64,000 nucleotides of DNA from a virus: positions 27,895 through 91,894 of the IMG/VR virus record IMGVR_UViG_3300030737_000007, one strand, 5' to 3'. Position numbers and translations under genes: made by a program. Within the stretch, counting starts at the first letter, position 1, and each line of letters begins with the position of its first letter. Below are positions 9,923 to 64,000 of the stretch, one piece after another. The notes under the pieces were generated by a model that had not been told where the DNA came from, searched no databases, and worked only from the letters and a program-made list of their open reading frames with translations.

Positions 9923-10101
9923 CGCCCCGACAGAAAACCATGAATGAGATTTGCGACATTCTCCACGAGCAGGTCAAGGCCGACGGCATGGGTATGGACC
10001 GAGAGAGGTTCATAAAACAGCACCGACGCTTGAACCACAAGTGGTTACTGGTTGCGCTAGAGAACTTGAAGAACCCGATCAAAGATGAGGTTTCCGGATA
10101 A
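9919..10101 (+). CDS. Hypothetical small protein before integrase
   Basis: The 60-residue helical, charged protein (MTPRQKTMNEICDILHEQ...) has a TAA stop overlapping the integrase ATG through motif A. An excisionase or integrase partner would fit this place and size, but no Xis motif is evident. Confidence 0.5.
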   Translation: MTPRQKTMNEICDILHEQVKADGMGMDRERFIKQHRRLNHKWLLVALENLKNPIKDEVSG

Positions 10102-10106
10102 TGGAA
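10092..10106 (+). repeat. Motif A copy on the integrase start codon
   Basis: TTCCGGATAATGGAA. TAA ends the upstream gene and the overlapping ATG starts the integrase. Confidence 0.9.
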
Positions 10107-11237
10107 AACGTCCTCAAGCGCGGCAACCAGTACCACTACTCAGCCACAGTCGGCAACGGCAGAAGGCTCCGGGCCTCGCTCGGCACGTCATGTCCGAAGT
10201 CGGCCAAGCGCCTAGCCCACCGTATCGGTCTAGCCATAGCCTCGGGGCCGGACAGTGAGTTGTGGCCTACCTTACGCCTCACCCTGCCCACCCAGAGTTA
10301 CCGCACCATAGCCACGGGTATGAGCGTAACCGCGCCGCCCGACTTGGCAGAGTTCGAATCCCTGTTCAAAGAGAAGCTGGACCGGCGGGAGAAGTTGGGC
10401 GAGATCACGGCCTCGACTCACAGTCTGTACGAGGCCGCCGCCGACAGCTTTTTCAACTGGCTAATCGGCCAGAAGATCGGCCAGATCTCAGAGGTAACCC
10501 CCTCACTGGTAGAAAAGTACCAGGTCTGGCGCAAGGAAAGAGTGTCCGAGCGGCCCCAGTCTAAAAACGGGCGCTCCCTGCTGACGGACAACACGGTGCT
10601 GGCCGCTATCTTCGAACTCGCCCAGGAGGAAAGGCTGATCCAGAAGTCTCCGTTCAAAGGCCGATTCAGAGCGTACGGTGCGCCCAAGGGTGCTGAGCCG
10701 TTTACACCGGAGGAGATGGCAAAGCTGGAGGCTGCGACCACAGACGGCGATCGCCTCGCATTCAAGATCTTCAAGTGGACAGGTATGCGTGGGTCAGATG
10801 TTGCTGATCTTACTTGGGCGGCGCTTGACCACATCGGCAGGACACTGCGTTGGGAGACCCGGAAGCGCGGCGTTTGGGTTACCATCCCGATATCCGAAGC
10901 TCTTGCTGATCAGTTGGGTGCGCGTTGGTACAACTCAACTGTAGTAGTGGAGGACAAGGTGCTTTCTGGCATGACGCGCCCGAAGCTATACCGCATGATC
11001 AAAGAACTTGGCATCCGGGCTGGCGTGCCCAACTGTCATCCCCACAGATTTCGTGACACTTTAGCCGTGACATTACTTGAGCGAGGTGCTACAATTTACG
11101 ACGTAGCCAAAATGCTGGGCGACTCCGTTACGACCGTAGAGAAACACTATGCACCGTTTACCGGTCGATTGCAGGAACGGGTCCGCGGGATTTTAGATTC
11201 CAGCCGGGAGTTTATGGAATTCCGGACCACGGGATAG
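10101..11237 (+). CDS. int: Tyrosine recombinase / phage integrase
   Basis: The 378-residue protein has the usual layout: a core-binding SAM-like domain (about 85-185), then a catalytic domain with the first Arg in TGMRGSDVADLTW, the H-x-x-R box HPHRFRDTLAVTLLERGATI and the nucleophile region MLGDSVTTVEKHYAPF (Tyr). All catalytic residues are present. It makes the phage temperate. Its start codon is part of a motif A copy, so motif A may control integration. No att site could be recognised nearby. Confidence 0.95.
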   Translation: MENVLKRGNQYHYSATVGNGRRLRASLGTSCPKSAKRLAHRIGLAIASGPDSELWPTLRLTLPTQSYRTIATGMSVTAPPDLAEFESLFKEKLDRREKLGEITASTHSLYEAAADSFFNWLIGQKIGQISEVTPSLVEKYQVWRKERVSERPQSKNGRSLLTDNTVLAAIFELAQEERLIQKSPFKGRFRAYGAPKGAEPFTPEEMAKLEAATTDGDRLAFKIFKWTGMRGSDVADLTWAALDHIGRTLRWETRKRGVWVTIPISEALADQLGARWYNSTVVVEDKVLSGMTRPKLYRMIKELGIRAGVPNCHPHRFRDTLAVTLLERGATIYDVAKMLGDSVTTVEKHYAPFTGRLQERVRGILDSSREFMEFRTTG

Positions 11238-17495: not shown

Positions 17496-17889
17496 GCGGC
17501 TATGGCCCGTTCAAGCAAACAAAAATACCGCTCTTTATGGTCGCGGTCGGGGTCGCGGTCGGGGTCGGGGTCGTGGTCGGGGTCGTGGTCGGGGTCGGGG
17601 TCGTGGTCGGGGTCGTGGTCGGGGTCGCGGTCGCGGTCGCGGTCGGGGTCGCGGTCGGGGTCGTGGTCGCGGTCGCGGTCGCGGTCGTGGTCGTGGTCGC
17701 GGTCGGGGTCGGGGTCGTGGTCGCTATAACTTAACTCTAACTGCCCGCCGGGAGCAATATCCCGGTTTTCCAGATAATGGAAAGAGGTCGCACATGACGA
17801 TCGAAGAAGCCACAGAAGAACTCCTTGACTTGGTGTACGACCCGCCGATCTTCCACTCCGATCCGTACGTCCAACGAAAATCAGTATAG
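17452..17889 (+). CDS. Possible (Gly-Arg)31 repeat protein, frame +1 over the array
   Basis: This frame encodes 31 consecutive Gly-Arg dipeptides (GGT CGN). The only base that varies between units falls on the Arg wobble position, so every difference is silent in this frame alone. The only upstream ATG (17452) lies inside the previous gene; a frameshift from the 17502 frame is another way in. After the array the frame continues in phase through motif A into the 17794 gene. Expression is unproven. Confidence 0.35.
   Translation: MSRPPPLSLSASESRRLWPVQANKNTALYGRGRGRGRGRGRGRGRGRGRGRGRGRGRGRGRGRGRGRGRGRGRGRGRGRGRGRGRGRGRGRYNLTLTARREQYPGFPDNGKRSHMTIEEATEELLDLVYDPPIFHSDPYVQRKSV
17502..17729 (+). 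CDS. Ser-Arg/Gly/Trp repeat ORF over the array
   Basis: MARSSKQKYRSLWSRSGS... starts 6 bp after the upstream stop, a natural position, with GGAAAG 12 nt before. It reads the array as Ser followed by Arg, Gly or Trp. Because the variable base changes the amino acid in this frame, it is less likely than the Gly-Arg frame to be the selected product, though its start may feed that frame by frameshifting. Confidence 0.3.
   Translation: MARSSKQKYRSLWSRSGSRSGSGSWSGSWSGSGSWSGSWSGSRSRSRSGSRSGSWSRSRSRSWSWSRSGSGSWSL
17539..17724 (+). repeat. Hexanucleotide array (GGTCGN)31
   Basis: 31 perfect-register tandem hexamers, 186 bp. Five positions are invariant; the sixth is G in 12, C in 11, T in 8 and never A. 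A simple-sequence array of this size is unusual in phage DNA. Confidence 0.97.
17768..17782 (+). repeat. Motif A exact copy
   Basis: Exact TTCCAGATAATGGAA, 11 bp before ATG 17794; its last bases form GGAAAGAGG, a ribosome-binding site. Confidence 0.92.
17794..17889 (+). CDS. Short ORF ending at an in-frame amber
   Basis: MTIEEATEELLDLVYDPP..., 31 codons with a GAAAGAGG site, ends at TAG 17887-17889. The same frame stays open beyond the amber for 76 codons to TGA 18120, and the reading after it is protein-like. It may be a single 108-residue gene broken by one base change, a readthrough site or a sequencing error. Confidence 0.45.
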   Translation: MTIEEATEELLDLVYDPPIFHSDPYVQRKSV

Positions 17890-36319: not shown

Positions 36320-36711
36320 GTTACGGGTGGGCAGAATTTGACGAAGCAGCAGACGAAGCGGGATCCAAGATAGTCCGGGTAGAACTGGGCGCGAACGGCC
36401 TCCCGATCCGGATCTTCCGCAAAGACCACGAGTACCTTCAGTGTCCGGAACAGTGGCTGGGGATCATGACCAAGAAGGAAGCGGTCGGGAGTATTCGCCG
36501 CCAGGTGTTTGACCGCTGCGACGGGAAATGCGAGCAGTGCGAGCGGTATATTACGTGGGAGAGTTTTGAATTGCATGAGAAAGTTTTCAAGGGTAAAGGC
36601 GGCGAGGTCTCACTGGAGAACTCCGTCGCACTCTGTAATCACTGCCATCAGTCCGGCCCCAACGCAGCACACCGAGACAGACGCTGGCAATCGGCGAAGC
36701 TGAGGAACTAA
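36316..36711 (+). CDS. HNH nuclease-like protein
   Basis: 131 residues from ATG 36316. RRQVFDRCDGKCEQCERYITWESFELHEKVFKGKGGEVSLENSVALCNHCHQSG matches the HNH layout (CxxC..., H.., N..., C..CH). The first His is in ELHEK rather than DH. Coupled to the sigma gene by TAATG. Confidence 0.72.
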   Translation: MSYGWAEFDEAADEAGSKIVRVELGANGLPIRIFRKDHEYLQCPEQWLGIMTKKEAVGSIRRQVFDRCDGKCEQCERYITWESFELHEKVFKGKGGEVSLENSVALCNHCHQSGPNAAHRDRRWQSAKLRN

Positions 36712-37187
36712 TGAACCTGGAAGATTTCAAACCCACGATCGCCGGTATTCTGGTCAAGCTGAAGGTACCCTCGGCCCAGAAAGAAGACATGGCCCAAGAG
36801 TGCTACATAGAGCTCCTTGAAAAACAGGAACTGGTGGCCGCCGCAGACTTCCCATACAGCTACGCAGAGTCGCTGTGCAAGAACCGGATCTTCGACATCT
36901 GGCGCGCGCAGGAGCGGAAGATACCTACCGAGAGCCTGAGCGATCCCCGTGTTTTACACAAGGCCGCCAAGGTGCCGATTTACGAGCAGTTCGGGGTATC
37001 GGACGAGAGTATGCAGGAGGCGCTCAGCACCCTGTCCGAGGACGAGCGCGCCGTGGTGGACCGGCTATACGTCCAAGGGTACTCCAGGTTCGAGACGGCG
37101 GCGGTGCTGAACATTCATCTGAACACAGTAGACAATCGGGTCAAGTCAGCGGTAGTGAAATTGAAGATGTATTTCGGGGTTGCGTAA
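36711..37187 (+). CDS. ECF-type sigma factor
   Basis: 158 residues. Region 2 (KEDMAQECYIELLEK.....SYAESLCKNRIFDIWRAQERK, about 24-75) and region 4 (MQEALSTLSEDERAVVDRLYVQGYSRFETAAVLNIHLNTVDNRVKSAVVKLK, about 102-155) are both present, separated by a short linker, so this is a sigma70-ECF-like protein. It would redirect host RNA polymerase, perhaps to late genes. TAATG overlaps on both ends. Confidence 0.8.
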   Translation: MNLEDFKPTIAGILVKLKVPSAQKEDMAQECYIELLEKQELVAAADFPYSYAESLCKNRIFDIWRAQERKIPTESLSDPRVLHKAAKVPIYEQFGVSDESMQEALSTLSEDERAVVDRLYVQGYSRFETAAVLNIHLNTVDNRVKSAVVKLKMYFGVA

Positions 37188-52560: not shown

Positions 52561-55500
52561 TCACTTTTCCTGCTCAAACGCCCCGAATACGCTCAGCGCC
52601 AGCAGCTCATTCTGAACCGTGTCCGTCCCCCAGTTGACCTCAATCTGCATGTGGCGGCAGACGGCGGGGTCTTGGGTCTGGGATAGGTAGAACCGTTGGG
52701 CGTATGTGGTGGCGCTCGGCTCTAGCTGGGTTGGATCCGGGTGGAAGAACACGAGGGGTTCGAAGTAGCCGCCAAGGGTGGTATTGACGGTCAGGCCAGC
52801 TCCGGTGCCCGTGATGTTGGTGGTCGGGACCGCAGTTCCATTATCTGGAAAAGTCTGGCCGGACACTGTGATCTGGAGGGTCTCGGCCGCGCCACCCGCT
52901 CCGACAGACAGAACCCGCGCTACTCCGGGCTGCGCGCCAGGGACGGTGATCTGCACGAGGTTGCCGACCGCGTACCCAGTACCAGGAGTATTCGGTACTG
53001 CGGTCGCGAGGCCGGTGATATAGCTGATCTCGTCTAGCTGGACCGCCAAGGTTACGGGAGTTCCAACCGCCTGAGAGTCAGTGGTGATGCTCTCGATCAT
53101 GGCGAGTTGGCCCGGCTGCGCGAACACAATCGAACCGATTACAGCGTACGCGGGGTAAGCCACGCCGTTGTCTGAGTTCACCGAGAAGTCGCGTTTCAGG
53201 ATCGGGCCGCTGACTGCGGGTCCGACGAGGAGATCGCGGTTGCCGGGGGTTGTTTCGACTGACTGAACTGCTGAAAACCCGCCAGTGATCGCGGCTCGGG
53301 GGCACCAAGTGTTTCCAGTTTCTGGACTCGGAGTAGGTAGCATCCGCCACCACGAACCCACGTAGTCTGACACGTAGATTGCCTGCTCTCGGGAACCGTC
53401 TACGTGCCAAGTGACACGAGTGGTTAGAGACGTGAAAGTCTCCGTGCCCTGCGTCGGACCAAACTGGTCTCCGATCGGGAAGCCAATCTGCGATACGCCC
53501 GAACTCGGATCCAGAGTAACGAACTGGTTGTCCGAAGTGTACATGTAGATGATGCTGCCGTTGACCGCGAAGGCGTCATACGAAGAAAGCCCGATATTTT
53601 GGAGGAAGGGCGAAGAGAAGAGAGGGCTCGAACTGGTGTTAGTCCCCTGAATCACGTACACGTCCGAAGTCGTAAAGGTGGTCAGACCGCTGACGGTCGG
53701 GAACAGCCGAACTGCGGATGACGGGAAGGTAAAGACGTTGCTCGGATTCCACGCAGTGTTGCCATTGCCGACAGTGTCGCCGGGACCGTTCGAGAAGAAG
53801 ACCTGATTTCCCACATAACCGAAGATGCAACCCAGATGGAAGGTGAGTCCCGTGATGCCAACGGGCGGAGGATTGTTCTCGTCCGCGAGAGGAGCCTCAA
53901 TCTCAACGTCCAAAGAAGTGTCGGGCAAGTAGTCTGTGTACTGCCACGTCGAGGCCGCACCAACAGTCGGGTTCGGGACTGCATCGAGGAATAGGAACGT
54001 CCCGCCACCCTGAGTAGTTCTCCAAACCCAAATCTGGTCGATTTGCGGATCAGCGATTGTAGGTCCGAACAGAATGGCGCGATACTCACCCGGAGGCCCG
54101 AAGACCTGGGTGTTGAAGTTCTGGCTGACGGTAGGGGAGGCTGTAGACACGCTTTTGTCTACCGAGTGGTAGCTGTAGGCATACTGGACGGAGCCGGTGA
54201 ACACAATGTTGCCGATGCCCACGTTCATCCAGGTAATGTTTCCGTCGGTCGTCGTGCCGCCCTGAGTCGCGTTCCAAGCTGGAGTGGTCGCCCCCGAAGT
54301 TGAAGGGGACGTAGCCGAGATCATGACCTGCAAATTACCATTCGAATCTAGGATCGCTTTGTTGAATCCGAAGACGGTAGATGGAGACCACGATACGATC
54401 GGACCCGCGTTGGTCCAAGTGATCGTGTTATCCGAGGTGGGTCCCCCTGCGGTGGGAGTGCCGACTGTAGTAGTGGTGGTTGTGCCGCCGACCGTCGTGG
54501 ACACTGTGGTGTAGGTTACGGCGGGGATCTGGCCGTTCCATGCGGGGACAGAACTCCCCGACTGCCCGGCGGTGCTTACGAACTGGACATTGTTGTTGGT
54601 ATCCAGAATGGAGTAGTACAGCGCGTACGGAGTGTTAGGACGCCATGTCCGGTAATTTGGGTTCTGGGAGATCGTGGGCGCGACCGTCGGTGTAGCAAGA
54701 CCCCAGTTGTAAAGAGGGACGCCGAAGTTTCTCCATTGCACGTTGCCATCGTTGGTCACACCGCCAAGAGCAGGGTTGAATGCAGGAAGAGTCGCTCCGC
54801 TCTGGTTCTGGGTCGCGGTGTTCTGGGAAGTAGCAGTGCCGGTTTCACCCGAAGGACCGAAGGGAGTAGTGGCGGGGGCCAGCACAGCTACCTGATCGGC
54901 GTTCGCGCCGTAGACAGTAGGCGACTGGATGGCGAGCGTTGTACCGTTCAACCCAGTGAAGACGGTCATCCCGTTGAATGTGAGTGAGGTACCCACCGTC
55001 CAAGGAACAGTCTCGTTGAACGTGATCAAAGCGTAGTAAACACCGCTGATCGAAGAGATCAGGATGTTCGTTATATTCAGGGTGAACGCAGACTCCGCAA
55101 CTTGGAGGAAGCCGTTGGAGTCGAGAATATACGCGCCTTGGTTGAACACCGTATTCGGAGCCCAGACAAGCGAGGGCGTTAGCAGCTTCTTCTGATCCGG
55201 GCCGTCCGAGAAATACAACGCGTTGCCGACCGACTGGAAGCTGGTAAACCCAGCTCCTGCGCTCTTGGTGAAGAGTACGTCCTGTGTATCGGGGCCAGTG
55301 GCGTCGTATATAATCCCGCCGTCAGACAGTGTCATCGTACCCGTATCAGGGGTAGGGCCGCTGTTGACGTGACTGGAACCTACGTTGAAGACCGCAGATC
55401 CGGGAGTCGAGGACAGAACCGTAAAACTCAGACCGTTGAGGCTGGTGTTGACGGTCATCCCAGCAAAAGCGACCGAGGTGCCGACGGGTATAATGTATGA

Positions 55501-55944
55501 CCCCGCGTACATGAGGATAGCTTCTTGGAACCCGAGACCGGAGTTATACACCAGCTTAAGAGTCGAGATATTCAACACTTGCGAGGCCGCGGTGGAATCT
55601 GCGATGACCTGGATGTTCTCAGTGGACGAGGTCTGCGACTGGTTGAATGTCGAGGTGCGGTTCTCGTAGAAGCGGTCGATCGGTGGGAAGGTCTTCGAGT
55701 TGTAGACTGTGAGGCCCGGACGCCGGATGAGGGTCAGCTTGGAGCTCGTCTCGCAGTTCAGCCCGTCTACTAGAGCGTCGCCGCGCGAGCCGTAGAACTC
55801 TTCCTCGATATGCCCAGACGCCGCGTCCCTCAGCGGGCTACGGTTGGTCCAGATACCGTCATACGAAAGACGGTTGCTCCAGAGGATTCCGTAGCGTACG
55901 GGTTTGGACGGCTGCGCGCCTTTTGTTGCGAGGAGATTTCCCAT
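52561..55944 (-). CDS. Large tail protein, nozzle-like (1127 aa)
   Basis: 1127 residues. LSYDGIWTNRSPLRDAASGHIEEEFYGSRGDALVDGLNCETSSKLTLIRRPGLTVYN resembles the start of podovirus tail tubular B or nozzle proteins (pG...RpGl..y). The long middle is made of beta repeats (WxxxTxF/VFGFNKAILDSNGNLQVM... with WNxxxGGxTxDGNxxWxNxG), three related modules. The C-terminal part may be a beta-propeller-like domain. No signal peptide. One motif A copy (TFPDNGT). Confidence 0.62.
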   Translation of the reverse strand: MGNLLATKGAQPSKPVRYGILWSNRLSYDGIWTNRSPLRDAASGHIEEEFYGSRGDALVDGLNCETSSKLTLIRRPGLTVYNSKTFPPIDRFYENRTSTFNQSQTSSTENIQVIADSTAASQVLNISTLKLVYNSGLGFQEAILMYAGSYIIPVGTSVAFAGMTVNTSLNGLSFTVLSSTPGSAVFNVGSSHVNSGPTPDTGTMTLSDGGIIYDATGPDTQDVLFTKSAGAGFTSFQSVGNALYFSDGPDQKKLLTPSLVWAPNTVFNQGAYILDSNGFLQVAESAFTLNITNILISSISGVYYALITFNETVPWTVGTSLTFNGMTVFTGLNGTTLAIQSPTVYGANADQVAVLAPATTPFGPSGETGTATSQNTATQNQSGATLPAFNPALGGVTNDGNVQWRNFGVPLYNWGLATPTVAPTISQNPNYRTWRPNTPYALYYSILDTNNNVQFVSTAGQSGSSVPAWNGQIPAVTYTTVSTTVGGTTTTTTVGTPTAGGPTSDNTITWTNAGPIVSWSPSTVFGFNKAILDSNGNLQVMISATSPSTSGATTPAWNATQGGTTTDGNITWMNVGIGNIVFTGSVQYAYSYHSVDKSVSTASPTVSQNFNTQVFGPPGEYRAILFGPTIADPQIDQIWVWRTTQGGGTFLFLDAVPNPTVGAASTWQYTDYLPDTSLDVEIEAPLADENNPPPVGITGLTFHLGCIFGYVGNQVFFSNGPGDTVGNGNTAWNPSNVFTFPSSAVRLFPTVSGLTTFTTSDVYVIQGTNTSSSPLFSSPFLQNIGLSSYDAFAVNGSIIYMYTSDNQFVTLDPSSGVSQIGFPIGDQFGPTQGTETFTSLTTRVTWHVDGSREQAIYVSDYVGSWWRMLPTPSPETGNTWCPRAAITGGFSAVQSVETTPGNRDLLVGPAVSGPILKRDFSVNSDNGVAYPAYAVIGSIVFAQPGQLAMIESITTDSQAVGTPVTLAVQLDEISYITGLATAVPNTPGTGYAVGNLVQITVPGAQPGVARVLSVGAGGAAETLQITVSGQTFPDNGTAVPTTNITGTGAGLTVNTTLGGYFEPLVFFHPDPTQLEPSATTYAQRFYLSQTQDPAVCRHMQIEVNWGTDTVQNELLALSVFGAFEQEK
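52836..52850 (-). repeat. Motif A exact copy in nozzle-like gene
   Basis: Exact motif read FPDNGT, near the 3' end of the gene. Confidence 0.92.
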
Positions 55945-56000: not shown

Positions 56001-56696
56001 ATGCCGAATCCGCACAATAAGCTCCCTCAAGAAGTAGGAGAAGAACTAGCACGGTTGTATGCCTCGGGTCTGGAGAGCAGAGTCGTGGCTGCTCAAACGG
56101 GATATTCTCATTACACAGTTATTAGCTGGGCCAGACGGCTGGGTGTTCCAATTCGACGTTCTCCGGGGAAGTACGTAGTAGAAATAAAAGTCTGCAAGAA
56201 ATGTGGAGTCGAAAAAGCAGCAAACGATTTTTATAAAAACCGGGAGAACTTAGACGGGTTGACCGGGTATTGTAAGGCCTGTGAAACCAAAAGACGGGAT
56301 GAAAAAGACCCCGACTGGCGTAAAAAGCTGCTCCAAGCGACCAAGAAATATCGGAAGGAAAATTTCCTAGGGTCGCGAGAAAAAGGGCTCAAACGTCGGT
56401 TCAAAATTACGCTAGAAGATTTCGACCGAATGCTCTCTGCGCAGAACAACGCGTGTCTGGGGTGCGGCGTGGCCAACCCTGAAAATAAAAGAAGGTTCTG
56501 GCACGTAGATCATGACCACGCTTGCTGTGACCAAAAAGATAGCACATGCGGAAAGTGTCTACGAGGAATACTTTGCCGCGGATGCAATATGGCTCTTGGC
56601 GGTGTAAAAGACAACGTAGAAACACTTAGAAATCTAGCCGTGTATCTTGAAAATAGTAAAATAAATCCTTTAGAATCAATACCACGGCCCCGGTGA
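56001..56696 (+). CDS. Endonuclease VII with N-terminal HTH, opposite strand
   Basis: 231 residues. HTH-like start (LARLYASGLESRVVAAQTGYSHYTVISWARRLGV), then CKKCGVEKAANDFYK...GYCKACE zinc part and the EndoVII core QNNACLGCGV...WHVDHDHACC...CLRGILCRGCNMALGGVKDNVETLRNLAVYLE. It is opposite to the late genes with its own promoter, and its end overlaps the adaptor gene by 20 nt. Typical mobile nuclease. Confidence 0.9.
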   Translation: MPNPHNKLPQEVGEELARLYASGLESRVVAAQTGYSHYTVISWARRLGVPIRRSPGKYVVEIKVCKKCGVEKAANDFYKNRENLDGLTGYCKACETKRRDEKDPDWRKKLLQATKKYRKENFLGSREKGLKRRFKITLEDFDRMLSAQNNACLGCGVANPENKRRFWHVDHDHACCDQKDSTCGKCLRGILCRGCNMALGGVKDNVETLRNLAVYLENSKINPLESIPRPR

Positions 56697-57761
56697 GTAC
56701 GGGTAGGCGGCTCCGATATCCATAGCGTTGGTCCACGGGTCGTACCCTCCCATTATGGATTGTCCAGGATATAATTGATTGTCTTCCTGTTGTCTATCTC
56801 CCGCTCGCACGGCTTTAAATAATTGTTCCTCCCACTCGCCGTAGGATTGTTGAGAATCCTTGCTTCCATTAAACATCTTAAGACTGGCCCTGAGTCCCGC
56901 TCGTACAAGATACATCATCTCGTTCGGAATCGGATCCATCGTCTGCTGCATCGTGCGGATTCTCGGCGGACGCTTTTGGTAGCGCGCTTGAATCAGCCAG
57001 CACAGACCATTCAAGGCCGGGACCGGACTCAGCCGCAACGCGTAGGCATCTGGGTCAGCCACGCACCATGTAACGGTTCCGTCGGCTACCAACGTTCCCG
57101 GTGTCGCGTTCGGAACAGCAGCAGGCTGGGTTGTCCCAGAAGTACCGTATGGCGAGTTTGACGGAAGCGTAATAACGTTTCCAACATATCCTGGAGACTC
57201 GATATTCAATCCAAGCTGAGTGCTGTCGATGAAAAGGATATTGCCGTTTACGTCAACGAACTGGTTGATCGGAACCCGCGGAGTTTGCGCAACGCCGTAA
57301 CCCGGGCCATAGACCGTATTCGCCTGCCACAACCCCATAAACGCGAGTGAGTTCTGGATGAAAGAGATGTTGAACGGCACACCCTGAAAACTAGTCTGCG
57401 CAAGATCGCGTACCGTTTCAAGCTGGAACACTGGCTTAGGCGCACCGTTATCATTCGACGTGGAGTTATTGATGTCAATCCGCCACGCGTCTTCAAGCCA
57501 ACCGATGTCCGTAATGTTCGAACAATAGTCCTGTTGCAAGCTGACGGTGATAAAGGCCGGGAAGTTTTTACGGTTCCACTTCCACGGCATGTTCTCTGCC
57601 AAAACGCGGGACATGACTTCGTTCGCCAGCGTGAGCATCGGCTCGGAGGAATAACCCGCCGCGCCGCCGAGGACGTTGTAGAACTCCGGATTGCTCTTTA
57701 GCTGGTTGGCAAGCTGCTGGACGGTTGTCGAGTAGGCTTGATCACCGGGGATAACAGGCAC
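56676..57761 (-). CDS. Adaptor / head-tail connector-like protein
   Basis: 361 residues, MPVIPGDQAYSTTVQQLANQLKSNPEFYN..., with LANEVMSRVLAENMPWKWNRKNFPAFITVSLQQDYC..IGWLEDAWRIDI and a central beta part, ending with a helical RAGLRASLKMFNGSKDS...EEQLFKAVRAGDRQQ. Helix-beta-helix layout and position before the nozzle gene suggest an adaptor (tail tubular A role). Family match not certain. Confidence 0.55.
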   Translation of the reverse strand: MPVIPGDQAYSTTVQQLANQLKSNPEFYNVLGGAAGYSSEPMLTLANEVMSRVLAENMPWKWNRKNFPAFITVSLQQDYCSNITDIGWLEDAWRIDINNSTSNDNGAPKPVFQLETVRDLAQTSFQGVPFNISFIQNSLAFMGLWQANTVYGPGYGVAQTPRVPINQFVDVNGNILFIDSTQLGLNIESPGYVGNVITLPSNSPYGTSGTTQPAAVPNATPGTLVADGTVTWCVADPDAYALRLSPVPALNGLCWLIQARYQKRPPRIRTMQQTMDPIPNEMMYLVRAGLRASLKMFNGSKDSQQSYGEWEEQLFKAVRAGDRQQEDNQLYPGQSIMGGYDPWTNAMDIGAAYPYSPGPWY

Positions 57762-57840: not shown

Positions 57841-58221
57841 CTACTGGACGGTGACGGAGAAACCGGTGGGGGGCTGAGGAGAGAGGGTGCCCGTGGCGAT
57901 ATTGGACGCGGCGGAGGTTGCTCCGTTGAGAACAGTCACACCGTAGTAGGAGTACTGCCCTGCCGTAACCGTAGTGTCTACGTAAGGCCCGGCAGCGGGC
58001 AGACCCGAGACCAGCAACGTAAAGGACGACAACGCGGTGCAGGGTGTTCCGACGCAGCGGTAGATGCTGACCGGGCCGGGCGTGGTCGAAGTTACCCAGC
58101 TAACAGTGGCGGAATTGCCGGTCGTAGTCTGCGCGAAGGCTACTTTGAACGCAGGGTGGGTGTTCTGCTGGGCGACCAGCGGAAGAGCGAAGAAGGCAAG
58201 AAGTAAGGCGAGGGTTTTCAT
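57841..58221 (-). CDS. Secreted FN3-like protein
   Basis: 126 residues. Sec signal peptide MKTLALLLAFFALPLVAQQ (cleavage after LVA or AQ). The rest fits one fibronectin type III domain (ATVSWVTSTTPGPVSIYRC..., QYSYYGVTVLNGATSAASN). Signal peptides on tail-region proteins are unusual in phages. Short gap to the next gene suggests one transcript. Confidence 0.7.
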   Translation of the reverse strand: MKTLALLLAFFALPLVAQQNTHPAFKVAFAQTTTGNSATVSWVTSTTPGPVSIYRCVGTPCTALSSFTLLVSGLPAAGPYVDTTVTAGQYSYYGVTVLNGATSAASNIATGTLSPQPPTGFSVTVQ

Positions 58222-58229
58222 AAATCTCC

Positions 58230-60113
58230 TTAGAAACTTGTGCCGGGGGAGGCGGTGAATCCTATTGAAAATTGAACTCCGAGAAAGGTGGGCGGAGCAA
58301 CGCCTGGTTCAAGCGCACCGATTGCTGGCGGGTTAGGCCGCGTGACGCCTACAAAGTCCAGCGTAGAGGCGAGGCTGGAAGCTCCTGCACCGATTGCGGG
58401 TGACCCACTTTGCAGCTCAAGGTTCGTCCAGGGTCCCGGCGTCGTCACGCTCGCAAATTTGGGATTCGTTGGGATGGCCTGCGAGGTAAGCGAGGATGCT
58501 GGCGACGTGCTTCCCGGCGTTGAGGCGCTGTAGAAAATATTATTGCTTCCCGTGAGCGTCGGACCAGAGACTCCAGTGTTTGAGAGGTAAACATTCTGCG
58601 TCCCGGTGTTGGTATACGCTGGCTGGGCAATGATATTGTTGACAAGGTTCAGTGTTAACCCCGTCTGCGCGTTTTCATAGAAGGCCAGAATCGCACTCGC
58701 GTTGTTCACGTTATTCGCGTTCAAATCGGAAGAACAGTCCCATAGCGTGTTGTTGTAGATGTTCACCGTGCCGCTCCCCGCCGTTGTTGCTTCACCCGGG
58801 GAGGCAATGCAGGCATGGTTCCCGTCTGAATCGCTCGCCGCCTGAATGCCAACGTGGTGGACGATGTTGTTGTAGACGTTGATCGGACCTTGCGTTGGAT
58901 CTAGGGTGGCTAGATTGATTCCAGCGCCATTCGCTCCCTCGATGTCGTTGTCATGGATGCTGAAATTTCCATAGCCTAGCGAGTCGTCGGGGCCGTAATT
59001 GATCTGTATCCCGTTGTAGGTACAGACGCTGGCGATCTTGTTCCAGCCGATTTCTTGTGTGTTCCCGTAGACATAGATCGAATGGTACTGCTTGTTCGAC
59101 AGGCCGCCCGGTGCAGCGCAACCCGCACCAGTCACATAGTTTCCCAATACCTCGTCGTTCGTGCTGGAATCAGCTTCAAAGCCTCCGGATAGCGCTCCAC
59201 TTGATCCATAACAGTCTGGACACTGGATAACGTTGTTGACCGTGCGCATGTCTGGTCCTGCCGAGGTCTCGCCGAAGGATAGGGCACTCCCAGCAGCGGA
59301 TGAGGTCGAGGTTCCGGTGAGAGTCAGTCCTGCCACCACCATGTACTCGTCTGAGTAGTCGCGGATGCCGCCCGTCACGTAGCCGTCACCGCCAATAATT
59401 ACAGTAGCTCCGGGCCTCGCCATGACGGTAGTTGGAATGGCTGCCGTGAAGCCGCTGTCGAACGCAAGCGCGGAAAATAACTGGCCACCGAAGTAGGGGA
59501 AGTTCGCTCCGTTCAGGAAGACGAGGGTATCGCCCTGCGCGAGGCAGTTGTAATAGGGCTGCGGCGTTCGGGCATTTGTAGCTGGCCCCGTGTTGCCGCT
59601 TCCGCCGTTCAGTCCTATGCTTACCACGTTGGTCAGCGTCCACGGGCTTGTATAGGTGCCACTCCCACCCAGCCCATCGCCCGCCGTGCCGTTCTTGAAG
59701 TTTGCGCAGGTGAACGCTGTTCCTGTCGTCACGTTGTCGATGCCCGCGCCGATGTAGTAGATCGATCCTGAGCGAACCGTGAAGCTTAGATTAGAGCACG
59801 ATCCACCCGGCGCGGTGATCACGATGCTTCCACTCCCCGTTGTCCCACTGGGAACCTGAAAGCCGAGTTGTTGACGATTGCCCGTATTGTCCGCGCCGAG
59901 GTAAATCTTGTTGGTGACGGCGGTACCGTTGACCGTGATGGTTATTGCCGAAAGCGAAGATCCGAATCCCGTACCGAACACATCGACATACGTTCCGCCG
60001 CCGCCCTCACCGCCGCTTGCTGGACCCGATTGCACATCTTGGTACATGCAGACGGGCGCAGCGTGAGCAAGGGCAGGACAGAGCAGCGCGAGGATGATGA
60101 GTAGTGTTTTCAT
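58230..60113 (-). CDS. Secreted beta-helix protein with IPT-like domain (tail spike-like)
   Basis: 627 residues. Signal peptide MKTLLIILALLCPALAHA, then an IPT/TIG-like domain (VDVFGTGFGSSLSAITITVNGTAV, about 40-110) and a right-handed beta helix with Asn-rich turns (HDNDIEGANGAGIN, VYNNIVHHVG, IYNNTLWDCSS, LVNNIIAQ). Such folds bind or degrade polysaccharide. The adjacent genes overlap by 1 nt (TAATG). Role as spike or exported enzyme is open. Confidence 0.7.
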   Translation of the reverse strand: MKTLLIILALLCPALAHAAPVCMYQDVQSGPASGGEGGGGTYVDVFGTGFGSSLSAITITVNGTAVTNKIYLGADNTGNRQQLGFQVPSGTTGSGSIVITAPGGSCSNLSFTVRSGSIYYIGAGIDNVTTGTAFTCANFKNGTAGDGLGGSGTYTSPWTLTNVVSIGLNGGSGNTGPATNARTPQPYYNCLAQGDTLVFLNGANFPYFGGQLFSALAFDSGFTAAIPTTVMARPGATVIIGGDGYVTGGIRDYSDEYMVVAGLTLTGTSTSSAAGSALSFGETSAGPDMRTVNNVIQCPDCYGSSGALSGGFEADSSTNDEVLGNYVTGAGCAAPGGLSNKQYHSIYVYGNTQEIGWNKIASVCTYNGIQINYGPDDSLGYGNFSIHDNDIEGANGAGINLATLDPTQGPINVYNNIVHHVGIQAASDSDGNHACIASPGEATTAGSGTVNIYNNTLWDCSSDLNANNVNNASAILAFYENAQTGLTLNLVNNIIAQPAYTNTGTQNVYLSNTGVSGPTLTGSNNIFYSASTPGSTSPASSLTSQAIPTNPKFASVTTPGPWTNLELQSGSPAIGAGASSLASTLDFVGVTRPNPPAIGALEPGVAPPTFLGVQFSIGFTASPGTSF

Positions 60114-62968
60114 TAGCTGCTCGCCGCCGAGAGCGAGGAAATCGTCATACCTGTTGTGGTCGCGCCGTTGAGCGAGAAGCCCAGCGATGTTCCCGAGGTA
60201 GATGGCGTTCCAGTCATGCTTCCGGTGACCGTACCCGTAGGACCGACCACCGTAATCGTCGTCCCAGAGAGCGTAATCGTGTAATTTCCCAAAATGTTCC
60301 CTGTTGGAGTGCTCGCTCCGATTGTCGTGAAGCTCCCGCCATTGCCGTTGAACACGGTAAAAAAGTTTTGCGTTCCAGCGGCTATGTTGATAGCGACATA
60401 ATTACCGGCGCTGCTATAACGAACAATGAATTGACAAGCAGAAGTAGTGCCTGTTCCAGTGCATTTCGTGAGATTGAAGCGAATGACCTCATTGGTAACG
60501 CCTGTATTGATTAGGTCAGTCTGGGCATTTGTGGTCGATGAAGAAACACCGCCACCTGTTTGATATTTATAGTCGGTTCCCGATGCGAGAACCCAAGTAC
60601 ACCCGCTTCCAGCCGTGCAGGTATTCGGAACTGTTCCCGCAAGGTTCGTTCCGCTTGCTGCCTCAGTGAAGTTGGTGTTCAGGTAGACCGACGTGGCCAC
60701 GTTGTAGTAGGCGGTTCCGGTCGTGAAGTAGCCGCTGCCTTGGCATGATCCATATACCGGACCAGTTGCCGATACTGTAACCCCAGTCGCTCCTGCTACA
60801 GCAGTTGTTCCCAGAGAGGCGAATGGAGACCCTCCAGAACAGGCGGTAGTGACGGTAGCTCCTGAAGCAATCTCTCCTGCGTTCGGAGTAAAAGTCGGCG
60901 TGGCTCCGAGCGGAGGCCAGCTTGCAGCGGGGAGGAAATTTCCGGCCCCTACATTGACGACTGCCGTGGTGATGTTAGATGGGTCTACGACATTCTGAAC
61001 CGTATTGTTGTTGCTATTGTTGTCGAGGCTTATCCCAGTCGTTCCATATCCGCCGATCGTGTTGCTCGTAATAGATGTGTACGTTACTGCTGCACCCGAA
61101 ATAAAGGTGGTTGTCGGCTGCCCTGAGACCGCGCTTAGAGCGTTGCCTGTAATCGTGGAATCGCTAACCGTGTTTAGTTGGATACCTGCCACTGGATACG
61201 TCAAAAGGTTGTTGCTGTTAATCGCCAGTCTTGAAGAATTTACGGCTTTGATTCCAATAGCCCCAGCCGATCCTAGTCCGTTCATGGCTAGATTAGACAC
61301 CGTAATTCCGGCAGAGTTTTCAATATCCAACCCAGTCGACGGGAAAAATACGGTGCTCAACCATCCTCCCTTTATCTCCACGTTGCTCTCTGCTGCGGTA
61401 GTAAGACCATTCAAATAAATACCTGTGTTGTAAAATGTATCAGTGATGCAATCAATGATGTGAATATCCCCTGCGGTATTCCCCCCCGGTGCTGTGTTGA
61501 AGATGTATATTCCGTAGGTCTGAAACTCCGTCTCGAACCCGCGTATCATGATGTCGTTCAGGTCTACGCCCTTGGCAATAAATCCGTAACTGGTGACACT
61601 AGAAAATCCGGGGGTTACGATCTGCGATGTGGAGTCGCGAAGACGAAATGACTCGGTGCCAAAGGCCCCATTCAGGTAGAACCCAGCAACCGCCGTCCCC
61701 GGATTGAATCCGTTCGCGCCCCATAGAGACCCGGAGTTTTGGACGTACCCAGTGCCGATTGAGGCAGCATTTTGAAAGTAGAAATTGCAGGCTGAGTCCT
61801 CGGACCAAACACGGTCAACGGAAAATCCACCGTCAAATTGAATCGACAATCCAGAAGGTCCCAGCGGACATCCGGTGCCTGATACTGAAGCAGCCACCGT
61901 CCGCATGAGGGTGAAGTTGCTGAAGTTATTGAATGAGATTGGGTTGGTGTAAACGCCCGTAGGGGAAATGGCTACGATGGTATCCGCAGTTGCAGACGTG
62001 TTGTAAATGGCGCTCGCAGGGACATTGGCAGCGTTCGCGTTGGCTATAGCCGTCGTGATCGCGCCGTTCGATGTACCTGAGAATCCAACACTCGATTGGG
62101 TGATGGTCGTGACGCCGGATACTTTGTACTTCAGCGCCTGCAACAAGCACTGATGAGGGCCTACTGCCGTCGCGCAAGCATTGAACGCCACGGTGTTGTC
62201 CGTTCCACCTGAACCGGAGCCTGAGTAGTCTCCCACCGCACCGAACCATTCCACCGGGGTAACTGGATTTTGCTTGCCAAGGTTTACAGACGCACCCGAA
62301 CCGAGAATGAATAACGCACCAACCGGGGCCTGGACGTTACCTGTGAGCGTCAGTACTTGGCCAGCCGACACTGTGATCGTTCCGCCGAGGCTGAAGATGT
62401 CTCCACTAATAGTTGCCGAGGTAGTTACGTTGTAATTGGTTCCAAAGCCCAAGAAGTTCGGAGAGGTTGCCGAGGCTGCGGTGGGAGCAGTGGTCGCTCC
62501 GTTGCCATACAGAAGTCCGTTGGGAAAGACGATAGTGTTCGGGCATGGCCCAACTACCCAAGTTGACCCGGCTCCGCCCAGCGCACATTGTCCGTTGACC
62601 GGTGCGAGAGATGTAGGCACTCCTGTTCCCGTCGTGTTAACTAACAGCCCCGTTCCCAACCCAGACAGCAGCGTGCCGTTGATTCCCTGTACTGTCGTAG
62701 CCCCGCCAGTTGACGTGCTCGTTGCGTCGCCGGTAAGGGCATTGAAACTCCCACCGCCACCAGAACCAATGAGCGTCCAAGTTCCACTCTGGCAGGTGTA
62801 AATCGTACCCAGTGTAGCTACCTGTTCGTCAGGAAGATTGACGGTGCAGGCTCCGCTCGGGGCCGCGGTAACCAGAAGTATAGTGGGGTATGCGGGTTGC
62901 TGCGCGCGCGCTGAAATCGCCGCTATGAACACCACCAGCCCGCAGATAATCTTTTTCATTGTTTTCAC
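60113..62968 (-). CDS. Secreted beta-helix tail-spike-like protein (951 aa)
   Basis: Signal peptide MKTMKKIICGLVVFIAAISARA. A Gly/Ser/Thr-rich fibre-like segment follows (SFNALTGDATSTSTGGATTVQG), then the pectate-lyase-type entry NPVTPVEWFGAVGDYSGSGSGGTDNTVAFNACATAVG (about 240-280), typical of phage spikes, and a long beta helix (GIYLNGL, GLDIENSAGITVSNLAMNG, TGISLDNNSNNNTVQNV). The C-terminal domain is beta-sandwich-like. Spike function likely, export signal unexplained. Confidence 0.75.
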   Translation of the reverse strand: MKTMKKIICGLVVFIAAISARAQQPAYPTILLVTAAPSGACTVNLPDEQVATLGTIYTCQSGTWTLIGSGGGGSFNALTGDATSTSTGGATTVQGINGTLLSGLGTGLLVNTTGTGVPTSLAPVNGQCALGGAGSTWVVGPCPNTIVFPNGLLYGNGATTAPTAASATSPNFLGFGTNYNVTTSATISGDIFSLGGTITVSAGQVLTLTGNVQAPVGALFILGSGASVNLGKQNPVTPVEWFGAVGDYSGSGSGGTDNTVAFNACATAVGPHQCLLQALKYKVSGVTTITQSSVGFSGTSNGAITTAIANANAANVPASAIYNTSATADTIVAISPTGVYTNPISFNNFSNFTLMRTVAASVSGTGCPLGPSGLSIQFDGGFSVDRVWSEDSACNFYFQNAASIGTGYVQNSGSLWGANGFNPGTAVAGFYLNGAFGTESFRLRDSTSQIVTPGFSSVTSYGFIAKGVDLNDIMIRGFETEFQTYGIYIFNTAPGGNTAGDIHIIDCITDTFYNTGIYLNGLTTAAESNVEIKGGWLSTVFFPSTGLDIENSAGITVSNLAMNGLGSAGAIGIKAVNSSRLAINSNNLLTYPVAGIQLNTVSDSTITGNALSAVSGQPTTTFISGAAVTYTSITSNTIGGYGTTGISLDNNSNNNTVQNVVDPSNITTAVVNVGAGNFLPAASWPPLGATPTFTPNAGEIASGATVTTACSGGSPFASLGTTAVAGATGVTVSATGPVYGSCQGSGYFTTGTAYYNVATSVYLNTNFTEAASGTNLAGTVPNTCTAGSGCTWVLASGTDYKYQTGGGVSSSTTNAQTDLINTGVTNEVIRFNLTKCTGTGTTSACQFIVRYSSAGNYVAINIAAGTQNFFTVFNGNGGSFTTIGASTPTGNILGNYTITLSGTTITVVGPTGTVTGSMTGTPSTSGTSLGFSLNGATTTGMTISSLSAASS

Positions 62969-62969
62969 C

Positions 62970-64000
62970 TTAAGGTTGGCATGAATAATCGAAAGTAATA
63001 CTGCCTGTAGCTACCGATACGGCAACCGAGACGGACACACCTGTCGCGGTTGCAACGCTGTGGCTCAGGCCCAGAGAAGTCGCCCCGCCGTTTTGCGAAA
63101 CAGAGCAGGCGTAGGCGGTAGTCGTCGTCGGCCACACCAGCGTCAAAATCGTCCCAGCAGAAACAGTCGTCGCCGTCATGGTGTAGGTGCCGCGGAGATT
63201 GGTGCAGGCCGCCGTAGAACACGAGACCGCAGAAATTCCAGTTCCTGGAACAGTCGAACTAATAGGGCTGGAGACGGCTGTGGTAATAGTGCAACTCCCG
63301 CCGAGTACACAGGTCTGTCCATTGACTGTCGTAAACGGATTCGCCAGATTGGAGTTAGGCAACGCCCCGCTCACGCCGCCCGCCGTGCTGCTCGCCAAGT
63401 TTACGGTGGAGAAGTTCATCAGTGAAGTAAACTCCGACCCACCGTTGAGATCGACCTTGAACAAATGAGAGGAGTCAGCGCGGATCGTGTCCACGCCTAC
63501 TGCTGGTGTTACCGCAGTTCCCGCCTCGGCAAAGGCTCCGCAACCAGATAACCCGGCGCAAGCGGTCGGAGGAGATGATCCAACCCCCAAGCCCGTTGTT
63601 GCGGTCAGAGTTGTAAAGGAGCCAGGTCCCTGTGTTGTCTGGCCTGTGCTGGTCGGGTTGATCGCCCCCAAGGTCAAAGTGATCGCGGGCGTCGTAGTTG
63701 CTGTTGCTACAGATCCTGAAACGCCGTTGGCCGTGGTTACCGAAACGCTGGTTACCGTACCGGACAAGGGCGTTGACCATGTTGTCAGACCCGTGGGCCC
63801 GCCACTGGTAAGCACCTGACCTGCGGTTCCAAGACTTCCTCCTACCTCGTAGGCCAAAGCGTTGAAAGTCTCGGACCAATTGAGAGTTTCGTCGTAGAAT
63901 GGCGATCCGGTATGAGTGAAACTTAGATTACCAAAGCTATCATTCGTCTGAAAGATGCTCGTAGTCGTCTGCGAATGCAAGAGATACATCAGCGACCGAG
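62970..64000 (-). CDS. Tail fibre-like protein, N-terminus outside window
   Basis: At least 343 residues; the frame is open to the window edge, so ATG 63989 is not necessarily the start. Sequence is Thr/Ser/Gly/Val-rich with repeats of fibre type (GTAGQVLTSGGPTGLTTWS, TLGAINPTSTGQTTQGPGSFTTLTATTG, FTTVNGQTCVLGGSC). The last shares phrases with the 951-aa protein (VNGQCALGG), so these are related fibre modules. Two bases precede the next gene. Confidence 0.7.
   Translation of the reverse strand, partial: RSLMYLLHSQTTTSIFQTNDSFGNLSFTHTGSPFYDETLNWSETFNALAYEVGGSLGTAGQVLTSGGPTGLTTWSTPLSGTVTSVSVTTANGVSGSVATATTTPAITLTLGAINPTSTGQTTQGPGSFTTLTATTGLGVGSSPPTACAGLSGCGAFAEAGTAVTPAVGVDTIRADSSHLFKVDLNGGSEFTSLMNFSTVNLASSTAGGVSGALPNSNLANPFTTVNGQTCVLGGSCTITTAVSSPISSTVPGTGISAVSCSTAACTNLRGTYTMTATTVSAGTILTLVWPTTTTAYACSVSQNGGATSLGLSHSVATATGVSVSVAVSVATGSITFDYSCQP

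Follow-up and report, generated by a model that had tools for sequence, protein, structure and literature searches.

The accepted view is that tailed phages finish their particles within the reducing cytoplasm, ahead of lysis. To our knowledge, the known beta-helix tailspikes are made and assembled there without signal peptides. Export of tailed-phage proteins by Sec with a signal has been described for exported endolysins (fOg44 Lys44) and SAR endolysins (PMC6116005), but these are lysis enzymes and not tail-locus fibres. The Nixviridae phages of P. gingivalis encode signal-bearing proteins that leave an N-terminal Gln on cleavage (PMC10367356); their host belongs to the Bacteroidota, and they were reported without an assigned function and not as a fibre block. 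The cultured podophages Tunturi 1 and Tunturi 2 of Tunturiibacter psychrotolerans, whose lineage is different from that of the phage studied here, were reported with lytic cycles in a paper that says nothing of signal peptides (PMC11924767). No earlier report of exported tail fibres was found in the open-access literature that was searched.

The window, the whole 64-kb stretch of DNA analysed here, makes up the final part of an IMG/VR viral record of 91,894 bp (L017). Its terminase, portal and tail genes indicated a podovirus-like phage. The sole relative of the portal among 50,697 phage records came from Tunturi 3, a cultured podophage that infects the acidobacterium Tunturiibacter, and the similarity in gene order and proteins extends through gp12, gp13 and gp19. 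Because of this relatedness, the host of the phage probably lies within the Acidobacteriaceae. An integrase gene (window 10101-11237) and a phage sigma factor gene (window 36711-37187) were present, so the phage may be temperate and may direct its own late transcription. One ORF (window 17537-17734) encodes almost solely Val, Gly and Ala (MVAVGVAVGVGVVVGVVVG...) in a GT-rich simple repeat and is probably not a gene.

The signal-less tail protein at 56676-57761 (minus strand) is a homologue of Tunturi 3 gp12 (32% over 331 aa, E 4e-40), and the signal-less 1127-aa virion protein at 52561-55944 (minus strand) is a homologue of gp19 (43% over 500 aa, E 5e-90). The gp12 homologue adjoins three genes on the same strand that encode proteins of 126 aa (57841-58221), 627 aa (58230-60113) and 948 aa (60113-62959), which places these genes in the tail locus. 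All three proteins have a basic n-region, a hydrophobic core of 10–13 residues and a small-x-small cleavage motif. The signals were called by a heuristic scorer that gave false positives in 0.8% of shuffled N-termini and in 0 of 1,531 internal Met segments. The cleavage sites, which are our own reading, fall between MKTLALLLAFFALPLVA and QQ, MKTLLIILALLCPALAHA and AP, and MKKIICGLVVFIAAISARA and QQ. The signal peptide spans residues 1-17 (58171-58221) of the 126-aa protein, whose mature part starts with QQNTHP and has two Cys, residues 1-18 (60060-60113) of the 627-aa protein, whose mature part has 10 Cys, and residues 1-19 (62903-62959) of the 948-aa protein. The 126-aa gene is preceded by a strong SD sequence, TAAGGAGA. 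The 948-aa gene was assigned to ATG 62959 because of a ribosome-binding site, AAGG, 8 nt upstream; GTG 62968 has none. The sequence-only reading had described three consecutive proteins with Sec signals, all beginning MKT. The Sec/signal peptidase I signals were confirmed in all three, whereas the third protein begins with MKK.

The block is also longer than that reading stated. Positions 62970-64000 (minus strand) encode the C-terminal part of yet another large exported protein, which is cut by the record end and, judging by homology, would span about 1,630 aa. Its N-terminal 595 aa, with the signal MKLLFTLLLLFLPFPLFG, are encoded at the other end of the record (3-1787). The two pieces match the C-terminal part and residues 49-580 of a single 1664-aa exported protein in another viral contig (L014), and about 2.1 kb is missing between the record ends, inside the split gene. 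A 456-aa exported protein (L017:1787-3157) precedes the split gene. If the record is one circularly permuted genome, the block would comprise five consecutive exported late genes. The genes form a tight, operon-like run in which stops and starts overlap. Among the 109 genes called in the whole record, scores of at least 6 were confined to the late block and one small upstream gene. Upstream of the block, L017:8672-9535 encodes a signal-bearing, trypsin-like serine protease (PF13365) and is adjoined by a gene for a small 114-aa exported protein (L017:9544-9888). The DNA bordering the record ends was 93-95% identical to co-occurring phages, compared with about 76-79% for the remainder, and the contigs L002 and L015 stop at the same base; together these suggest that the record ends are a shared recombining segment that broke the assembly.

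Tail fibres and tailspikes are expected where the block lies, within the tail gene cluster. It is flanked by homologues of Tunturi 3 gp13 and gp12/gp19, and at this position Tunturi 3, on the same phage backbone, keeps its own fibres (gp14-gp18). The Tunturi 3 fibres have no signal peptides, and their Cys are few and mostly unpaired, but their N-terminal fibre domain and some segments are common to exported proteins of related phages. An exported protein of contig L029 carries the N-terminal domain of the Tunturi 3 fibre gp15 soon after its signal (40%, E 1e-11), and it has CFQDAQGNC, with two Cys added, where the unexported gp15 has AFQDALGNV. Segments of Tunturi 3 gp7 (60%, E 6e-17) and gp15 also recur in exported proteins of L004. 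The C-terminus of the 456-aa protein matched a Gp53-like tail-fibre domain at E 2.8e-4, under the curated cut-off, and the protein matched phrog_1396 tail fiber. Whole-protein family searches were almost silent, and the fibre-tip match appeared only with the isolated C-terminal 115 aa. The structure model of this upstream fibre-like protein had a pLDDT of 33. A K1-lyase C-terminal domain was matched under the cut-off in L034. The similarities to fibre tips and to fibre N-terminal domains are either weak or limited in extent.

The 948-aa protein, read here as tailspike-like, matched PF13229 in Pfam. Its predicted model was confident only in a beta-helix at about residues 440-655 of the mature protein. 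The top Foldseek matches of this helix were phage tailspikes, and the nearest folds were the right-handed beta-helix tailspikes CBA120 TSP2 and the KP34 depolymerase; the C-terminus was nearest to galectin/LamG-like lectin folds. The TM-scores were low in both cases because much of the model is poor. The 948-aa protein and its homologue A845 have in common the signal, residues 72-190 and the C-terminal 250 aa and differ in the centre, an exchange that resembles those in receptor-binding proteins. The family was absent from the host-family genomes (0/150), so the 948-aa protein seems to be phage-only.

The other two proteins point to the host. The 627-aa protein, with a beta-helix, matched PF01833 TIG (E 1.1e-5) and, weakly, DUF5123 in Pfam. 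It has relatives of 78% identity in other viruses, and all 10 Cys are conserved in the 78% relative. Its nearest cellular relatives are in Granulicella, where a chromosomal protein is 48% identical over residues 1-602 with the signal present. It is the closer of two tandem secreted paralogues (1413 and 727 aa) that lie amid housekeeping genes on the chromosome of Granulicella sp. L46 (L035:9836-16615), and weaker relatives turned up in 7 of a further 149 host-family genomes. The 627-aa protein thus looks like a host secreted protein rather than a fibre, and its origin as a recruited host gene is supported. The 126-aa protein was similar to host protein domains in 27 of 150 genomes, and both of its Cys are kept in the homologues A127 and B133. 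The FN3 label given to it earlier has no Pfam backing and rests on the weak similarity to host protein domains. Its recruitment from the host is plausible. The earlier suggestion that the signals came with recruited host genes is therefore supported for the 627-aa protein, whose chromosomal Granulicella relative also has a signal, and is plausible for the 126-aa protein. It does not extend to the 948-aa protein, with no relative in 150 genomes, or to the fibre-like upstream protein. The block appears to combine secreted proteins recruited from the host with phage fibres whose signals are of the same type.

The same block was found in about a dozen other viral contigs, traced as relatives of the block proteins and of Tunturi 1 gp17, and in the cultured Tunturi 1 and 2. 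The runs comprise five exported genes in L014, four in L004, three in L005, L024, L031 and L032, three or four in L023, and two in L034, where they adjoin homologues of the window tail genes. In Tunturi 1 and 2, a run of large fibre or spike proteins with Sec signals and even Cys counts occupies gp12-gp17, between a tail gene and the endolysin. The signals are on gp12, gp13 and gp14, annotated as tail spike or pectin lyase, and on gp16 and gp17, annotated as virion structural proteins. No further large fibre or spike candidate was present in the part of these two genomes that was read. Among the 50,697 phage records, gp12 had relatives in Tunturi 1 and 2 only, and no relatives were found for the 948-aa and 1664-aa proteins, the 1328-aa protein of L004, or the exported proteins of L009 and L085. 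The latter are fibre-like proteins in the tail regions of phages that resemble those of other phyla, one Bacteroidota-like (L009:11832-17805) and one Proteobacteria-like (L085:2165-3178). Signal-less fibres or spikes are found in Tunturi 4, in crAss001 and in Tunturi 3, whose host strain is that of Tunturi 1 and 2, so not every phage has the export trait and the host does not demand it. crAss001, considered as a cultured precedent, was ruled out by its signal-less tailspikes.

Exported proteins of disulfide-forming bacteria tend toward even cysteine counts, and VKOR and DsbA-fold proteins were found in six of six host-family genomes. The mature part had an even Cys count in 45 of 48 curated signal-bearing proteins, nearly all from the tail blocks of about 15 phages (p 6.6e-11), and in 32.6 of 34 clusters after adjustment for homology. 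By comparison, the count was even in 84 of 192 signal-less proteins from the same contigs (Fisher p 3e-11) and in 7 of 21 signal-less structural or fibre proteins (Fisher p 3e-7). The Cys content was 1.95% in signal-bearing proteins and 1.10% in signal-less ones. Host signals share the pattern A-x-A before a cleaved Q (19/25). Host secreted proteins, taken as a positive control, were Cys-poor and showed no bias (9/18 even, a small sample), so the parity pattern belongs to the phage proteins and not to export in general. Across all phages, Cys counts of exported and unexported homologues were inconsistent (101 versus 104 in 28 matches), partly because an exported long-signal protein (L082:3535-8739) was counted as unexported; only the comparison within one host, that with Tunturi 3, is clean. 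Signals and cysteine parity together strongly support export of the block proteins.

We propose that the block is the tail-fibre and tailspike repertoire of the phage, plus two host-derived secreted proteins. The proteins would be made late from the structural operon, cross the Sec channel of the host and lose their signals to signal peptidase I, in most cases with Gln as the new N-terminus, as in host proteins, and would then fold with disulfide bonds in the oxidising periplasm. Heads and tails would be assembled in the cytoplasm, and the fibres in the periplasm would dock onto the released tails once the cell has been opened by holin and endolysin. That exported, disulfide-bonded fibres and spikes join the virions at lysis is, in our judgement, evenly poised between right and wrong. 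The data support the signals, the export compartment as read from Cys pairing, the tail-locus position, the candidate fibre and spike domains and the recurrence; from these we infer late expression, cleavage, periplasmic folding, virion attachment and its timing at lysis. Several observations count against the proposal. Five or six exported proteins per phage exceed the needs of most virions, and the host does not require export, since the signal-less fibres of Tunturi 3 serve for infection of the same strain. The weak or local domain matches, the poor models of the upstream fibre-like protein and of the 948-aa protein outside its helix, and the likeness of the 627-aa protein to a host secreted protein also weigh against it.

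The data do not separate attachment to the virion from action free of it, and the latter is the main rival. The proteins may be exported and disulfide-bonded but never enter virions. They would act late in infection, in free form or at the cell surface, either as depolymerases that clear exopolysaccharide for release or as receptor-masking binders that keep progeny from sticking to debris or reinfecting. We regard this as possible but somewhat doubtful. The evidence for export serves it equally, the 627-aa and 126-aa proteins are similar to proteins that the host secretes, and beta-helix folds are similar not only to tailspikes but also to polysaccharide epimerases and lyases; the signal-bearing proteins of the P. 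gingivalis phages were also read as possible host surface modifiers (PMC10367356). However, the proteins are encoded at the fibre locus, candidate fibre-tip and fibre N-terminal domains are among them, and the phages would be left without obvious receptor-binding proteins. No virion proteomics for these phages was found in the literature, and the Tunturi paper only suggests it (PMC11924767).

Lysogens can alter their surface with exported phage proteins, as in the lambda examples Lom and Bor, and export by the lysogen had been raised in the sequence-only reading. The integrase of the window phage makes lysogeny itself possible, but the genes sit close together in a late tail operon, stop codons overlapping start codons, and the same block occurs in Tunturi 1 and 2, which are reportedly lytic (PMC11924767). 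Lysogenic conversion is not favoured for these reasons, and we consider it improbable. It is just as hard to see the signals as leftovers of host genes recruited as fibre modules, with the proteins mostly cytoplasmic or exported without use. The close host chromosomal relatives of the 627-aa protein, which carry signals, would fit such an origin. Yet signals persist on unrelated proteins, after swaps of N-terminal domains and despite sequence change in the hydrophobic core; cysteines are paired in phage fibre domains, and the 948-aa family is without host relatives in 150 genomes.

The premise that virion proteins are not exported may be what fails here. We suggest, tentatively and with rather more doubt than belief, that among tailed phages of Acidobacteriota it is routine for the receptor-binding fibres to be exported through Sec and matured by disulfide bonding in the periplasm, and for the particle to be completed outside the cytoplasm at lysis. 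Two cultured phages, Tunturi 1 and 2, make the export reading directly testable. Signal peptides often serve to label phage genes as 'host-derived' or 'moron', a practice on which the finding would bear. If true, a class of soil phages with exported, cysteine-paired proteins in the fibre locus would break the rule of completion in the cytoplasm and would explain the origin of disulfide-stabilised receptor-binding proteins.
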